Source: an uncultured Caulobacteraceae bacterium (GTDB lineage: Bacteria; Pseudomonadota; Alphaproteobacteria; Caulobacterales; Caulobacteraceae). Taken from it: a stretch of 64,000 bases of DNA. Numbering within the stretch: position 1 is the stretch's first letter; every line of letters begins with the position of its first letter. Under the pieces are notes generated by a model, which saw only the letters and a program-made list of their open reading frames with translations, was not told the DNA's origin and ran no database searches. Positions 371-13,648 of this stretch are shown one piece after another. The translations under genes and the position numbers were made by a program. Location: positions 1 through 64,000 of the forward strand of contig CAIYVC010000116.1 in assembly GCA_903929535.1 (NCBI GenBank). Reading direction: 5' to 3'.

Positions 371-1507
371 CTAGCCCGGCGCCGCCCCCTGCACGCCCAC
401 CCGCACCAGATAGGCGGACTGGCTCGCGCACATCCACAGCCAGTCCCGCTTGGGCCCGCAGAAGCACAGGTTGGCGCAGGTTTCCGGCAGGCGGATGCGG
501 CCGATGCACTTGCCCGCCGGGTTCCACACCGTCACCCCCATGTAGCCGGGGACCGAGGTCGATCCGGCCCAGACGTTGCCCGCCACATCCACCCGGTGGC
601 CGTCGAACCGGCAATAGACGCCGTCCACCATCCCGTCGCTGAAGGTGCGTTGGTTGGCGATGCCGTTGCCCTTGACGTCGGCGACCTCCAGCGTCGGACC
701 CCAGACGAAATAGACCTTCGAATAGTCGGGCGAGAAGGCGATGCCGTTGGGCGCCGGTCCGCCCGCCTTGCTTTCCAAAACCACGTCCAGCCGCCCGCTG
801 GGGTCCAGGCGATAGATGCTGGGCGGACGCACCTGATGCTGCGAGCCGATCAGGCCCGCCCCGCCGTTGCCCAGCGCCGGATTGGCCAGGCCCTTGGGGT
901 TGAAGGGCGCCACGCCCGGATCGGGATGTCCCTCCGACAGCTGCGCCCCGTAGAGCGGGTCGGTGAACCAGATGCTGCCGTCCTTGTGCGGGGCCACGTC
1001 GTTGGGCGAGTTCAGCGGCTGACCCTTGTAGTTGTCGGCCAGGACGGTCATCGACCCGTCGTGCTCCCAGCGCACGATCCGCCGCAGATAGTGTTGGCAG
1101 GAGATTTGGCGGCCCTGGAAGTCGAAGGTGTTGCCGTTGGAGTTGAACGACTGCCGCCGGAACGGCGTCACCTCGCCGGTCTCCCAGATGTAGCGGTACT
1201 GGATGTCGGCGGAGACGTCGCTGAACACGACATACTGGCCCTCGCCGCTCCAGGCCGGGCCTTCCGCCCACTCAAAGCCGGTCTTCACCCGCTTGATCGT
1301 GCTGTGGCCCAGGAAGATGTCGCTGGCGCTGGGGTCCAGCAGCAGGATGTCCGGGTCCGGATAGGTGTTGGGCTGCGCGTCCGGGCCATAGATGCGCCCG
1401 TTCAGGATCGAGTTCGCCGGCGCCAGGGCCGCTTTGGGCTGGGCGTGGGTCAGGATGGGGGCGCAAGACGCGGCTCCCACAATCATCCCGCGGCGGGTGA
1501 ATTCCAT
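371..1507 (-). CDS. SMP-30/gluconolactonase/LRE-family protein, exported
   Basis: 378 residues. The N-terminus MEFTRRGMIVGAA looks like a short twin-arginine or Sec leader ending near THA-Q. The body has the marks of a six-bladed SMP-30/gluconolactonase propeller: EGPAW (about residue 82), NSPNDV, WFTDP, PNGIAFSPD and a C-terminal ANLCFCGP strand. Family members hydrolyse sugar lactones or act as calcium-dependent esterases; the substrate cannot be read from sequence. The ATG follows GGGAGG at 8-base spacing, a strong start. The C-terminal blade is rich in cysteine (C-x2-L-C-F-C). Family assignment is secure, reaction is not. Confidence 0.82.
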   Translation of the reverse strand: MEFTRRGMIVGAASCAPILTHAQPKAALAPANSILNGRIYGPDAQPNTYPDPDILLLDPSASDIFLGHSTIKRVKTGFEWAEGPAWSGEGQYVVFSDVSADIQYRYIWETGEVTPFRRQSFNSNGNTFDFQGRQISCQHYLRRIVRWEHDGSMTVLADNYKGQPLNSPNDVAPHKDGSIWFTDPLYGAQLSEGHPDPGVAPFNPKGLANPALGNGGAGLIGSQHQVRPPSIYRLDPSGRLDVVLESKAGGPAPNGIAFSPDYSKVYFVWGPTLEVADVKGNGIANQRTFSDGMVDGVYCRFDGHRVDVAGNVWAGSTSVPGYMGVTVWNPAGKCIGRIRLPETCANLCFCGPKRDWLWMCASQSAYLVRVGVQGAAPG

Positions 1508-5709: not shown

Positions 5710-7851
5710 CTACAGCCGGTAGTTCAGCGTGATGTTCACCGACCGCGGCTTGGCCAGATACCACTGCTGGCCGCCGTTGCCCGAAACGGTCGGATAGATG
5801 GCGTCCGTGGCGTTGTCGGCGCGCAGGTCGATCGACAGCCGGGGGGTCGGGGTGAAGCGCAGGCCCAGGCCCACATTGTCGTAGGCCGGCAGCTGGATGG
5901 TGTTGGCCGCGTCGGCGTAACGCAGGCCGACGTGCTGCAGGCCGGTGCGCACTTCCCAGTTGGGCATGAAGCGCCAGCGCACCCAGGCGTTGGCCGTCTG
6001 GGTCGGCACATTGGGCGGCCTCTTGCCCGAGCGGTTGACCAGCACCCCGCTCACCGCCTGCTGAAAGTTGTCGTACTTGGCCTGCAGCACGCTGCCGTTG
6101 GCGTCCAGCCTCCAGCCGTGGCTGAAGGCCACCATCAGCGAGCCTTCCACGCCCTGCGAGGACTGCTGGCCGACCTGCTCGGAGACGGTCGGGTTCGACA
6201 GGCTCGGCGTCAGCAGGTTGTTCTCGGTGATCTGGAAGGCCGAGACGGTCCATTGGCCGCGCTGGTCCCAGAAGGTTTGCTTGACCCCGCCTTCGAACTG
6301 CCGGCCCGTCGCCAGATTGAACTGCGACTGCGCCAGGGTGGTGGTGATCAGGGTGCCGACCGAGGCGGTCGCCGTGGCGTACTGCACATAGAGCGAGGTG
6401 TGCGGCAGCGGGTTGTAGACCAGGCCGAACCGGTAGCTCGGTGCATTGAAGGTCTTTTTGAAGTTGGCGCCGTTGTCGGTCACCTTGGTGCCCAGCGTCG
6501 GGTCGGTGTAGCGCAGGTCGGTGATGTCGTACCGTCCGCCCAGCACCAGCGACAGGTTCGGCAGCACCTTCAGCCGGTCCTCGCCGAAGAAGGCGTATTC
6601 GTTGGTGTCGGTGATCACCCGCGGCGCGAAGATGGTGGTGGTGTTCCACACCCCCGGCGAGAAGCTGTAGGGGTTCACCGCCCCCAGCGTCCCGTTGTAG
6701 GGCGAGTTGTTGGCGTTCTCGAAGTGGATGGCGTTGAAGTCGAAGCCGGCCTCCAGCTCGTTGTCCAGCCCGCCGAACTTGTTCTTGTAGGTCAGATAGG
6801 CCTGGTCGCCGACCTGGGTCTCGTTGTGGTGGATGTTGAAGAAGCCCGACAGCGCGACCAGCTTGGTGGTGGCGTTGTAGGTGTAGGTCTCCACGTCGTG
6901 CCACTGCCGGTGGGTGTTCAGCACATAGAGGTCGTTGTGCACCGACAGGTTGTCGCTGGCGGTCCAGTCCGCTTTGAACTGCAGCACGTTGTCGACGAAG
7001 TTCATGTAGCTGTCGGTGGAGGTGAAGTTGCTGTAGCGGATCGCCGGATCCAGCTTCCCCGCCAGGATCGGCGTGCCCCAGTACTCGGTCGGCGAGTTGA
7101 GGCCGAAGTCGTCCGACAGCGACAGCCGCAGGTTCGGCGACACGTCGTACTGCCCAGACACCGACACCGCCGTGGAGTCCGAGGCGCCGTCATGGTTCAG
7201 CCAGCCGGCGGAGTACTGATGGTCCACGTCCAGCCGGTAGCCGCCCTTGCTGCCGATCGCGCCGGTGGTGTCGATCGACTGCTGGTAGGTCGAGAACGAG
7301 CCCCCGCCCAGTTGCACCGTGGTCGACGGCTGGGTCGGGTTGGGCTTGCGCGGCACAACGTTGATCGTGCCGCCGATGGCGCCGACGCCGTACAGTACGG
7401 AGTCCGGCCCGCCGATCACCTCGATATTCTCCACGTTCCAGGTGCTGAACGGGAAGGAGACGGTGCCCGAGCCGATCGCCAGCTGGGTGCCGTCATACAG
7501 CTGCATCACCGCGCTGGTGCCGGTGAAGCCGCGGTAGCTCAGCCCCAGGCCGCCGTTGCCCGGGCTGCCGGCGTTGGACACGCCCGGCGCCGAGCTTTCG
7601 GCCTGCATGATCGACACCTGGCCCAGGCTGCGGATGGTGTCGCCGTCCAGCAGGGTCACGCTGGCCGGGGTCTCCAGGATCGGAATGTTCAGGCGGCTGC
7701 CCGCCAGGGTCGGCGTCTCGATATTGGTCGGCACCGCCGTCACCACCACGCCCTCGACCGCCGTCTGCGCCAAGGCGGCGGCGGGCAGCAGCAGCGGCGC
7801 GAGGCAGGCCGCATAGAGCCAATGCGCGCGCGTTTTACCGGAAATCTTCAC
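5710..7851 (-). CDS. TonB-dependent siderophore receptor
   Basis: 713 residues from GTG 7851, chosen over an ATG at 7890 because AGGGGA sits 7-8 bases before it and the signal peptide (VKISGKTRAHWLYAACLAPLLL...ALAQ) then begins at residue 1. TAVEGVVVTA is a TonB-box-like start of the mature protein. The plug has TPASVTLLDG, YRGFTGTSA and GGPDSVLYG; the rest is a 22-strand-type barrel with alternating aromatic/hydrophobic strands. The family imports ferric siderophores or similar chelates across the outer membrane. The final strand ends NYRL rather than in an aromatic residue. The PepSY gene upstream suggests reductive iron release. Confidence 0.9.
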   Translation of the reverse strand: MKISGKTRAHWLYAACLAPLLLPAAALAQTAVEGVVVTAVPTNIETPTLAGSRLNIPILETPASVTLLDGDTIRSLGQVSIMQAESSAPGVSNAGSPGNGGLGLSYRGFTGTSAVMQLYDGTQLAIGSGTVSFPFSTWNVENIEVIGGPDSVLYGVGAIGGTINVVPRKPNPTQPSTTVQLGGGSFSTYQQSIDTTGAIGSKGGYRLDVDHQYSAGWLNHDGASDSTAVSVSGQYDVSPNLRLSLSDDFGLNSPTEYWGTPILAGKLDPAIRYSNFTSTDSYMNFVDNVLQFKADWTASDNLSVHNDLYVLNTHRQWHDVETYTYNATTKLVALSGFFNIHHNETQVGDQAYLTYKNKFGGLDNELEAGFDFNAIHFENANNSPYNGTLGAVNPYSFSPGVWNTTTIFAPRVITDTNEYAFFGEDRLKVLPNLSLVLGGRYDITDLRYTDPTLGTKVTDNGANFKKTFNAPSYRFGLVYNPLPHTSLYVQYATATASVGTLITTTLAQSQFNLATGRQFEGGVKQTFWDQRGQWTVSAFQITENNLLTPSLSNPTVSEQVGQQSSQGVEGSLMVAFSHGWRLDANGSVLQAKYDNFQQAVSGVLVNRSGKRPPNVPTQTANAWVRWRFMPNWEVRTGLQHVGLRYADAANTIQLPAYDNVGLGLRFTPTPRLSIDLRADNATDAIYPTVSGNGGQQWYLAKPRSVNITLNYRL

Positions 7852-11744: not shown

Positions 11745-11905
11745 CTACTTCTTCGGCCCATTGCTCAGCATGTGCGCGAAGAACTTGTCCCCATCGACCG
11801 GGTCGATGTTCACCTGAATGCAGCCCAGGCCCTTCTTGGGCGCCTCGCAACTCATGTGGTGCCCGAACCCGGTCGAATCCGTCTGCAGCAGGAAGTTGAC
11901 GGCCC
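11745..11905 (-). pseudogene. C-terminal fragment of an unidentified gene (5'-truncated)
   Basis: On the minus strand, about 50 codons ending in TAG read VNFLLQTDSTGFGHHMSC...VNIDPVDGDKFFAHMLSNGPKK, with natural residue variety and no plausible start. Upstream of about 11905 this frame degenerates into the antisense of another reading frame on the opposite strand. I read it as the surviving 3' end of a gene cut by a rearrangement. I do not recognise the family. Confidence 0.4.
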
Positions 11906-12444
11906 TGCTGCAAACCCGCCTGCTCAAGGACATGGACGAGGCCCGCGCCCGCGCCGCCTTCGACCGCATCCGCGAGGCCGCCATGCCGCCCGTCGCCGAT
12001 GACGACGCGGAGGAGGCCCGCCGCACCGATCCCCTCTACGTCCACAAGGCCCGCGTGGAGGCCATCGTCGAGCGCATCGCCAAAGGCAAAGCCAAGAACG
12101 ATGAGGAAAAGGTCGACCGCCTGATCCGCGAGGCCGGCGAGCGGCTCGACGACGAGGACATCTACGGCGATGTGCTGGAGCGCCCCGTGGGCGAGCTGGT
12201 CGCCCTGATCTGCCGCGACCTCGGCCTCGATCCGGACTGGACGCGTCTGGCCGAGGAGGCCTGGGCTCAGGAGGAGATCAGGATCGGGGCGGAAAGGTCG
12301 CCGTTTCTGCGGGCCGCGCCAAAACAAGAACTCTCCTTCCCCCTCGAGGGGGGAAGGGACGGGATGGGGGTGAACGCACCGCCGTCATGGATTGGATCAT
12401 TGGAGGCGCCGCCTCACTCAGCCTTTGCGTCGCCGTCGGGGTAA
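11905..12444 (+). pseudogene. C-terminal fragment of a charged alpha-helical protein (5'-truncated)
   Basis: From about 11905 the plus strand encodes a convincing helical, acidic/basic segment (LLKDMDEARARAAFDRIREAA, then KARVEAIVERIAKGKAK, GERLDDEDIYGDVLERPVGE, LGLDPDWTRLAEEAWAQEEI), with no credible start at its beginning. Its natural tail seems to stop near 12330; the frame then runs through a REP-like repeat before TAA at 12444. It meets the minus-strand fragment at nearly the same base, which suggests one breakpoint removed the 5' parts of both genes. The family is unknown to me, and an intact gene with an odd start is not excluded. Confidence 0.4.
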
Positions 12445-12534: not shown

Positions 12535-13401
12535 TTAAAGCAGCGCCCCGATCGCCGACGGAATCTGCGCCAGCTGCGCCTGCAGACCCACCAGGTCCAC
12601 CGTGGTCCCCGATCCGTGGGCGACCTCGGTATAGACACCGTTGGCCGAGGCCCCGGCGTAGAACACCTCATAGGACGTATGCGTGCCGAAGGTATGGATC
12701 GCCTCCACGAACCCGGCGGCCAGCGCCTTGAAGCTGGTGTGGCTGTCCGCCGTGTACGTCGTCGCCGTCCCCGTGGGGCCGATGTGCTGGGCCGCGGTCA
12801 CCGCGCCGCCCGCCACCGTGAACTTGGCGCGGTCGTATTCATTGACCGACAGGGCCGTGGTCGCGCTGCCCACCGGGATGAAGGTCGAGCTATGAGCGGC
12901 GACGGCATACAGGCCGCCCGCCGTGGGCTGCACGTACTTGATCGTCTCCACCGCGTTGCCCTGCACCACCGTCTCGGTGATCGCGCCGCCGCTCGTGGAG
13001 AAGGTCATCGCCGGCACGATCGGCGTGGCGTGGGTCGAGGTGTGCGTCCCCATGGTCATGGTCTGGCTCATGCCGGTCACCGCCCCGCCCGTCAGGGTGA
13101 AGCTGTAGCCGTTGGTCCCGCCGTGGCCGTTGGAGGTGGTCGGCGCGGCGATCGTCGTCGTCTCCTGCGAGACCAGGTACTGGCTGGTGCCCGCCACGAC
13201 CGAATATTTGATGACCTCGGTCGCGCTGGTTCCGGTCAGGGTCTCGGTCACCGTGCCGGTGCCCACCGCGAAGGTCGCCGTGCTCGGCAGGGTGAGGGCG
13301 TGGCTGGTCGTGCCGTTGACGGCCGCCATGCCGGTGACCTTGCCGCTGGTGATGGTGAAGGTGAAGCGCACGCCGCCGGGGGCGCCGAAAGAGCCGGTCA
13401 T
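12535..13401 (-). CDS. Thr-rich protein with three ~88-residue repeats, unknown function
   Basis: 288 residues from ATG 13401, chosen over an ATG 24 bases upstream because AGGGAAGGA lies 7 bases before it. The chain is three related units (residues ~12-96, 98-186, 189-265). Each opens with an F-T-(I/L/V)-(T/A)-G-G-x-V-T strand pair and closes with a T-E-x-x-x-x-x-x-x-E-x-I-K-Y-like strand and a V/A-rich hairpin. Composition is Thr/Gly/Ala/Val, with almost no Lys, Arg or Cys. This suggests a repetitive beta structure of adhesin or secreted type. There is no signal peptide, so export (if any) would need a type I or other signal-less route. The C-terminus is hydrophobic (AQIPSAIGALL). I do not recognise the family. 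Confidence 0.7.
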   Translation of the reverse strand: MTGSFGAPGGVRFTFTITSGKVTGMAAVNGTTSHALTLPSTATFAVGTGTVTETLTGTSATEVIKYSVVAGTSQYLVSQETTTIAAPTTSNGHGGTNGYSFTLTGGAVTGMSQTMTMGTHTSTHATPIVPAMTFSTSGGAITETVVQGNAVETIKYVQPTAGGLYAVAAHSSTFIPVGSATTALSVNEYDRAKFTVAGGAVTAAQHIGPTGTATTYTADSHTSFKALAAGFVEAIHTFGTHTSYEVFYAGASANGVYTEVAHGSGTTVDLVGLQAQLAQIPSAIGALL

Positions 13402-13591
13402 GGTTAATCCTTCCCTAATGTTCATTGAGGGAGAGACGTCATGGGGCCGCCGGGCGCCCTATGGACATTTTGACGCACCCCCTGGCTGCAGGATTGGCAG
13501 GCAGCTGCAAGCGGCGCCGTGGAGGGCCCTAGCGACTCGAAACCTTCGCCGCGCGCTCAAGCAGCCGGCAGGCGTTAGCGCAAAAAAGAAT

Positions 13592-13648
13592 CTGCCCGCG
13601 CGCACACCGGATTTCCTAAGGCAAAGCTCTCGAAACTGTCGCGGGCAG
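13592..13648. promoter_or_regulatory. Long-loop inverted repeat upstream of amn
   Basis: CTGCCCGCG (13592-13600) and CGCGGGCAG (13640-13648) are perfect 9-bp complements, 39 bases apart; the distal arm ends 17 bases before the amn ATG. As RNA it could form a stem occluding the ribosome site; as DNA it could be a paired operator. The rest of the 264-base gap shows nothing else I can name. Confidence 0.4.

Follow-up and report, generated by a model that had tools for sequence, protein, structure and literature searches.

A Thr-rich three-unit beta-repeat protein of a Caulobacteraceae bacterium, a rare family with a possible route of leaderless export

In Caulobacter vibrioides the S-layer leaves the cell through a type I secretion system (T1SS), and the HasA-type proteins are small T1SS substrates that do not belong to the RTX group. 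We examined a window of 64,000 nucleotides of DNA from an uncultured Caulobacteraceae bacterium, which encodes a Thr-rich protein built from three repeat units, and compared this protein with the closest described systems. RTX proteins (PF00353) are likewise leaderless, as judged by eye, free of Cys and poor in Lys and Arg, and some of those from genomes that carry the family described here end in the same V-x-L-V-G tail; the window protein differs from them in having no nonapeptide repeats and no recognised linked transporter, and its repeat unit is of another kind. Like the HasA-type substrates, the window protein is small, leaderless and without RTX repeats, but no PDB sequence matches it at E values up to 10. 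Runs of antiparallel beta hairpins such as are predicted for the window protein occur in the single-layer sheets of OspA-type proteins and in Rhs/YD-repeat shells, but the similarity to either falls below our Foldseek standard of E 0.001. Two published observations frame the question of export. CdzC, a small T1SS-exported protein, is kept on the Caulobacter surface (PMC5380434), and because of this precedent T1SS export of small surface proteins would be an ordinary idea in this group, CdzC itself being a different kind of protein. RTX C-termini are described as having a last 20 residues rich in D, L, T, V, I and F and poor in R, K, E and P, a last 60 residues rich in G, and a last-two-residue pattern of [FLI][VAI] (PMC8861453).

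The gene, its repeat units and their predicted fold

The gene and the sequence ahead of it are as follows:
12535 to 13401, minus strand: gene for the Thr-rich three-unit beta-repeat protein of 288 aa, identified from its open frame and its relatives
13408 to 13415, minus strand: Shine-Dalgarno-like GGGAAGGA, 6 nt ahead of ATG 13401, role putative

A second in-frame ATG at 13425 would give a 296-aa version of the protein. Because GGGAAGGA precedes ATG 13401 at this spacing and no Shine-Dalgarno-like sequence is visible ahead of ATG 13425, ATG 13401 is the likely start. The gene is real, a spurious open frame in high-GC DNA being ruled out by the open three-unit relatives at 43 to 46% identity. 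The initial annotation had described a product rich in Thr, Gly and Ala, nearly free of Cys and basic residues and lacking a signal peptide, and the points on composition held up. The 296-aa version contains 19.3% T, 13.5% A and 12.8% G, the 288-aa version contains no Cys and only 7 Lys and Arg residues together, and inspection by eye found no hydrophobic leader-like N-terminus in the three-unit members. For comparison we used genes from the neighbourhoods of family members, called with a simple composition-based ORF caller that has no gene finder behind it. The Lys+Arg fraction of the four three-unit members, including the window protein, lies below that of all 199 comparison genes, a set that holds several family members since it retains the L071 to L075 copies that were removed from the 193-gene set used for the C-terminal analyses. 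Cys was absent from 8/8 members counted, the corresponding figure being 26/164 for comparison genes of at least 170 aa; in the Cys, Lys+Arg and tail-pattern counts the L044 protein was entered 12 residues short. A longer call for the L075 protein has three Cys, all within an upstream stretch that is probably non-coding.

The protein can be divided into three units and a tail:
13126 to 13374, minus strand: repeat unit 1, residues 10-92, strands 12-84, boundaries set by hand
12874 to 13119, minus strand: repeat unit 2, residues 95-176, strands 96-174, nearest to unit 1, boundaries set by hand
12604 to 12852, minus strand: repeat unit 3, residues 184-266, strands 186-264, D-x-D/N-x-D-G loop lost
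12538 to 12603, minus strand: C-terminal tail of 22 residues, 267-288, predicted helices 270-277 and 282-287, a candidate type I secretion signal

Three homologous repeats of about 88 residues had been proposed, and comparison with shuffled sequences substantiates them. Units 1 and 2 align with a BLOSUM62 score of 112 (maximum of 74 in 500 shuffles) and units 2 and 3 with a score of 63 (99% of 500 shuffles at 56, maximum 71); the score of 44 for units 1 and 3 is not significant by itself (99% of shuffles at 58). When alignments of the relatives were included by use of hhalign, the three pairs scored 87.8, 19.8 and 24.2 against shuffle maxima of 19.5, 18.7 and 19.8, all pairs thus exceeding 200/200 column shuffles. 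Spacing of the repeats, measured from the predicted strands, is 84 and 90 residues. By these sequence comparisons the three units are real, with unit 3 much more distant from units 1 and 2 than these are from one another, and this pattern suggests a duplication of an N-terminal unit in the lineage of the window protein. Unit 3 is the one most clearly common to the window protein and its two-unit relatives.

A repetitive beta structure had also been anticipated, and structure prediction of both the whole protein and a single unit agrees with it. AlphaFold2, run on the whole protein with five input sequences and five models, predicted 21 strands, seven per unit, followed by two short C-terminal helices. 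The best model had a pLDDT of 87.5 and a pTM of 0.81 and the other four had pLDDT values of 65 to 66, so that confidence in the predicted whole-protein fold depends on one model of five. Unit 3 modelled alone again gave seven strands and the helices, less confidently (75.4, 73.3, 65.6, 45.6 and 45.1). A meander of antiparallel beta hairpins describes the predicted fold best. Foldseek found no match in the PDB at E 0.001 or better for either the whole model or unit 3 alone, nor for the whole protein among viral models at E 0.001; DNA sliding clamps, which ranked first in the PDB search with the whole model, have E 3e-3 with a TM score of about 0.1 and were taken as chance. OspA was found by Foldseek at E 6.3e-3 and TM 0.16, and a weak second-look structural alignment with an OspA mutant gave Z 3.4 over 49 residues at 2.1 A. 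In this second look the whole model reached a Z of at most 3.5, and unit 3 alone reached Z 5.2 with Rhs/YD repeats (70 residues, rmsd 4.2 A), for which there is no supporting Pfam match. Z values of this size may reflect only a common arrangement.

Relatives and genomic setting

No named family was found for the window protein in Pfam (E up to 10), NCBIfam, PHROGs or PDB sequences (E up to 10), and weak PDB sequence and Pfam rows under the cut-offs were taken as chance, as were ARF_AD (0.0015) and DUF6760 (0.003) on the two-unit proteins P0003 and P0004. Phage records, plasmid records, viral contigs and PHROGs gave no match. A search of the literature by title found nothing on this beta-repeat family, which is no proof of its absence from print. 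Among 60 close genomes the window's own copy was the only one found. In 390 genomes of the same family, three other full-length relatives were detected at E 1.9e-63, 9.8e-60 and 2.7e-56, with 43, 46 and 44% identity in the alignment; all three have three units and open frames. The remaining 39 of the 43 matching genomes in this search had best E values from 0.009 to 0.9 and were taken as chance. With the single protein as query, neither the genome contigs nor the viral contigs yielded a relative. A profile scan of genome contigs found four loci: L022 in an Alphaproteobacteria bin, L024 and L025 in Phenylobacterium bins, and one in a Telmatospirillum bin, three of the four apparently corresponding to the G373, G335 and G339 relatives. 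The Telmatospirillum match, of 180 residues, is a fragment whose open frame begins past a stop inside the second unit; on its contig there is also a gene whose product matches DUF4214 weakly (E 0.012, short of the cut-off).

Profiles extended the family to a shorter form. When 289 genomes of the class were searched with a four-protein profile, proteins with two units and a length of about 190 residues came to light in a second alphaproteobacterial family (f56), in two of its genomes, the other matches of that run being the window's own genome and one marginal; G570, at E 0.006, was taken as chance. A profile of the two f56 proteins matched 6/59 f56 genomes, all of one genus and including both seeds. 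Applied to 149 genomes of the window's family, this profile recovered the window protein at E 1.1e-4 together with two-unit proteins in three genomes. Profile-profile comparison joins the two-unit and three-unit groups at E 3e-13, a value for a one-target comparison. A combined unit profile, of the kind the initial annotation had proposed as a check, then found relatives in 12/390 genomes of the window's family, the own genome included, 7 of these 12 having supplied rows to the profile. Four of the carriers have three units (G000, G335, G339 and G373) and eight have two unit matches, so that unit number varies between two and three. In 385 genomes of the class a two-unit profile matched just the two f56 genomes already identified, and it missed the window at E 0.001. 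The beta-repeat family is thus rare and patchy in the sampled genomes. Within the libraries searched it qualifies as the undescribed repeat family that had been suspected: it matches no named domain, it has relatives, and the frame is open in 3/3 of the full-length ones. Two of the two-unit loci are unusual in structure. The G271 relative (L071, about 7060-7750) has a stop between its units and is likely a decaying copy; in L043 (8282-9028) a long acidic linker separates the units.

Calcium binding by loops of the D-x-D/N-x-D-G type is established for other proteins. Such a loop occurs in nine rows of a 13-row alignment of units, with D-x-N-x-D-S in one row and neither motif in three, including that of the window protein. 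By analogy the loops of the relatives probably bind calcium, and the window protein is a Thr-rich three-unit form in which the loop was lost.

The gene lies between two features:
11897 to 12310, plus strand: 5'-truncated copy of a multi-copy gene, a scar, with 86% DNA identity to L130 1531-1935 of the own genome
13629 to 15132, plus strand: amn and its upstream edge (PF10423, PF01048), with DNA homology to two genomes of the same genus

Its earlier description as a stand-alone gene between a rearrangement scar and amn is in agreement with these assignments. DNA homology upstream of amn begins at 13629 in both same-genus genomes, G001 and G002, a sharp end of synteny. Beyond this edge a gene for a ribonucleotide reductase small chain follows in G001; in G002 the sequence there holds an SMP-30-like gene together with part of the truncated element seen in the window. 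The repeat gene is absent beside amn in both genomes and has no match anywhere in them at E up to 10, G001 being only 79% complete. The scar gene, a full copy of which encodes 255 aa at L130 1275-2042, belongs to a family with 5 sites in the own genome, 7 in G002 and 1 in G001, and with no site in three other genomes searched; it has no Pfam match and may be a dispersed element. SMP-30-like genes (PF08450) are found at window positions 371-1507, 12 kb from amn, and at L128 3394-4590, next to amn in G002, two positions that suggest rearrangement of shared content. The segment that carries the repeat gene is a variable site, whose gain or loss may have brought the gene in or removed it. Reading of translated starts by eye at the 14 member loci found no constant partner gene; neighbours are common to L045 and L046, which are of one genus, and some metabolic neighbours to L072, L074 and L075.

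Evidence bearing on export

The C-terminus of the window protein has the composition described for RTX C-termini in PMC8861453: its score over the last 60 residues is reached by 1/193 comparison genes and its score over the last 20 by 8/193. This composition spans the whole protein, other 60-aa segments scoring 15, 15 and 20 compared to 14 at the C-terminus. The last two residues are LL, which departs from the [FLI][VAI] pattern given there. A V-x-L-V/T-G tail is found in the four three-unit members and in the Telmatospirillum fragment. We used four tail patterns, all picked after the tail had been seen. The strictest, V-x-L-V-G, occurs in 0/193 comparison genes and in 6/22 RTX tails of carrier genomes, a set that comprises the 23/30 retrieved RTX loci whose end is complete and one substrate adjacent to a T1SS, less two duplicates, and a few of which are perhaps not true RTX C-termini. 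Of the 193 comparison genes, the three looser patterns match 15, 13 and 3. The tail pattern was present in 8/10 members first counted and in 10/16 after six more were added, one of them the L071 fragment. It is missing from the two-unit members L042, L044 and L072 to L075, and the C-terminus of L072 is average. An RTX-tail profile gave the window protein 3.3 bits (E 0.93) with five non-family genes higher, and it did not separate the family from background. Because six two-unit relatives lack the tail and the RTX-tail profile is not significant, we treat export as unsettled.

We also determined whether carriers of the family encode a suitable transporter. A PrtD-type transporter above the curated cut-off is found in 11/12 carriers of the window's family versus 69/125 sampled non-carriers (one-sided Fisher p 0.012), an association that ignores relatedness and genome size and for which up to 53 candidates were scored per genome in carriers versus 10 in the sample. 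With G587 added, the transporter is found in 12/13, and in the family sample overall in 72/129. The carrier G324 has its PrtD-type gene in two pieces only, and the control Caulobacter vibrioides falls below the PrtD cut-off. Inspection by eye of the gene starts near the 14 member loci and within window positions 1-40162 revealed no recognisable PrtD-type T1SS locus. About 5 kb away from the G324 member lies an ABC exporter whose score on the PrtD model, 204 bits, is far under the cut-off of 510; other transporter genes were seen by eye near some member loci. On another contig of the own genome, C140 (L084 3-3851), the gene for a PrtD-type transporter is next to one for a DUF4214 protein, the latter truncated where the contig ends; this is a candidate S-layer-like export locus. 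The own genome has no PF00353 match at E 1e-5; the other 11 of the 12 genomes searched have one.

Explanations and significance

Our leading explanation, to which we give a probability of about 0.4, is that the window protein, a beta-repeat protein lacking a leader, works at the surface or outside the cell and is exported by a T1SS whose genes lie elsewhere in the genome. The support is circumstantial and consists of the lack of Cys, the scarcity of Lys and Arg, the RTX-like tail and the presence of a transporter in the genome. The gene is an orphan of a rare and undescribed alphaproteobacterial family, and its product is predicted to fold into antiparallel beta hairpins, with three seven-strand units and a short helical tail. 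According to this model, export would most likely proceed through a PrtD-type T1SS with no leader being cleaved off, the C-terminal tail putatively guiding it, and the protein would work outside the cell as a surface-associated or matrix protein; an adhesive or structural role, such as the adhesin, sheath or secreted fibre of the initial annotation, is a guess. The window copy has lost the loop that probably binds calcium in its relatives and has become Thr-rich.

It is also possible that the protein stays in the cytoplasm as a beta-repeat protein with a binding role, its composition being that of a soluble Thr-rich beta sheet. Such a location is consistent with the RTX-like composition being spread along the whole protein, with the tail missing from six two-unit members and with no T1SS neighbours having been recognised by eye; the Lys+Arg fraction below that of all 199 comparison genes, the lack of Cys and the conservation of the tail across all four three-unit members as well as in the Telmatospirillum fragment argue against it. 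A surface or extracellular protein released in some other way, for example by lysis or in vesicles, would account for the RTX-type C-terminal composition, the lack of Cys and the low Lys+Arg content just as T1SS export does, but we consider it improbable: by eye the three-unit members have no leader-like N-terminus, and alternative routes find no support in our data.

The gene occupies a variable segment next to a truncated gene copy and is absent from two same-genus genomes. These facts, together with the interrupted relative in G271, could mean that it was detached from a larger adhesin or is decaying as a mobile gene. The three-unit architecture is nevertheless open in 3 relatives at 43 to 46% identity and in different surroundings, which makes this origin very unlikely. 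Beta-rich repeats and a patchy distribution might likewise be expected of a structural protein of a phage or plasmid, but with no match in phage records, plasmid records, viral contigs or PHROGs we give this origin hardly any weight.

Returning to T1SS export, the model can be carried further to a surface family of a new seven-strand unit, with a calcium-loop two-unit form and a calcium-independent Thr-rich three-unit form, that would build extracellular sheets or a matrix without RTX repeats; in this extended form we regard it as unlikely. If export proves false, there would still be a domain family that can be described, one for which our searches of Pfam and NCBIfam gave no match. If export proves true, a small non-RTX class of leaderless beta-repeat proteins would be added to the type I cargo of alphaproteobacteria, and the family, having two or three units with or without the probable calcium loop, would be suited to asking whether calcium-driven folding is needed for secretion.
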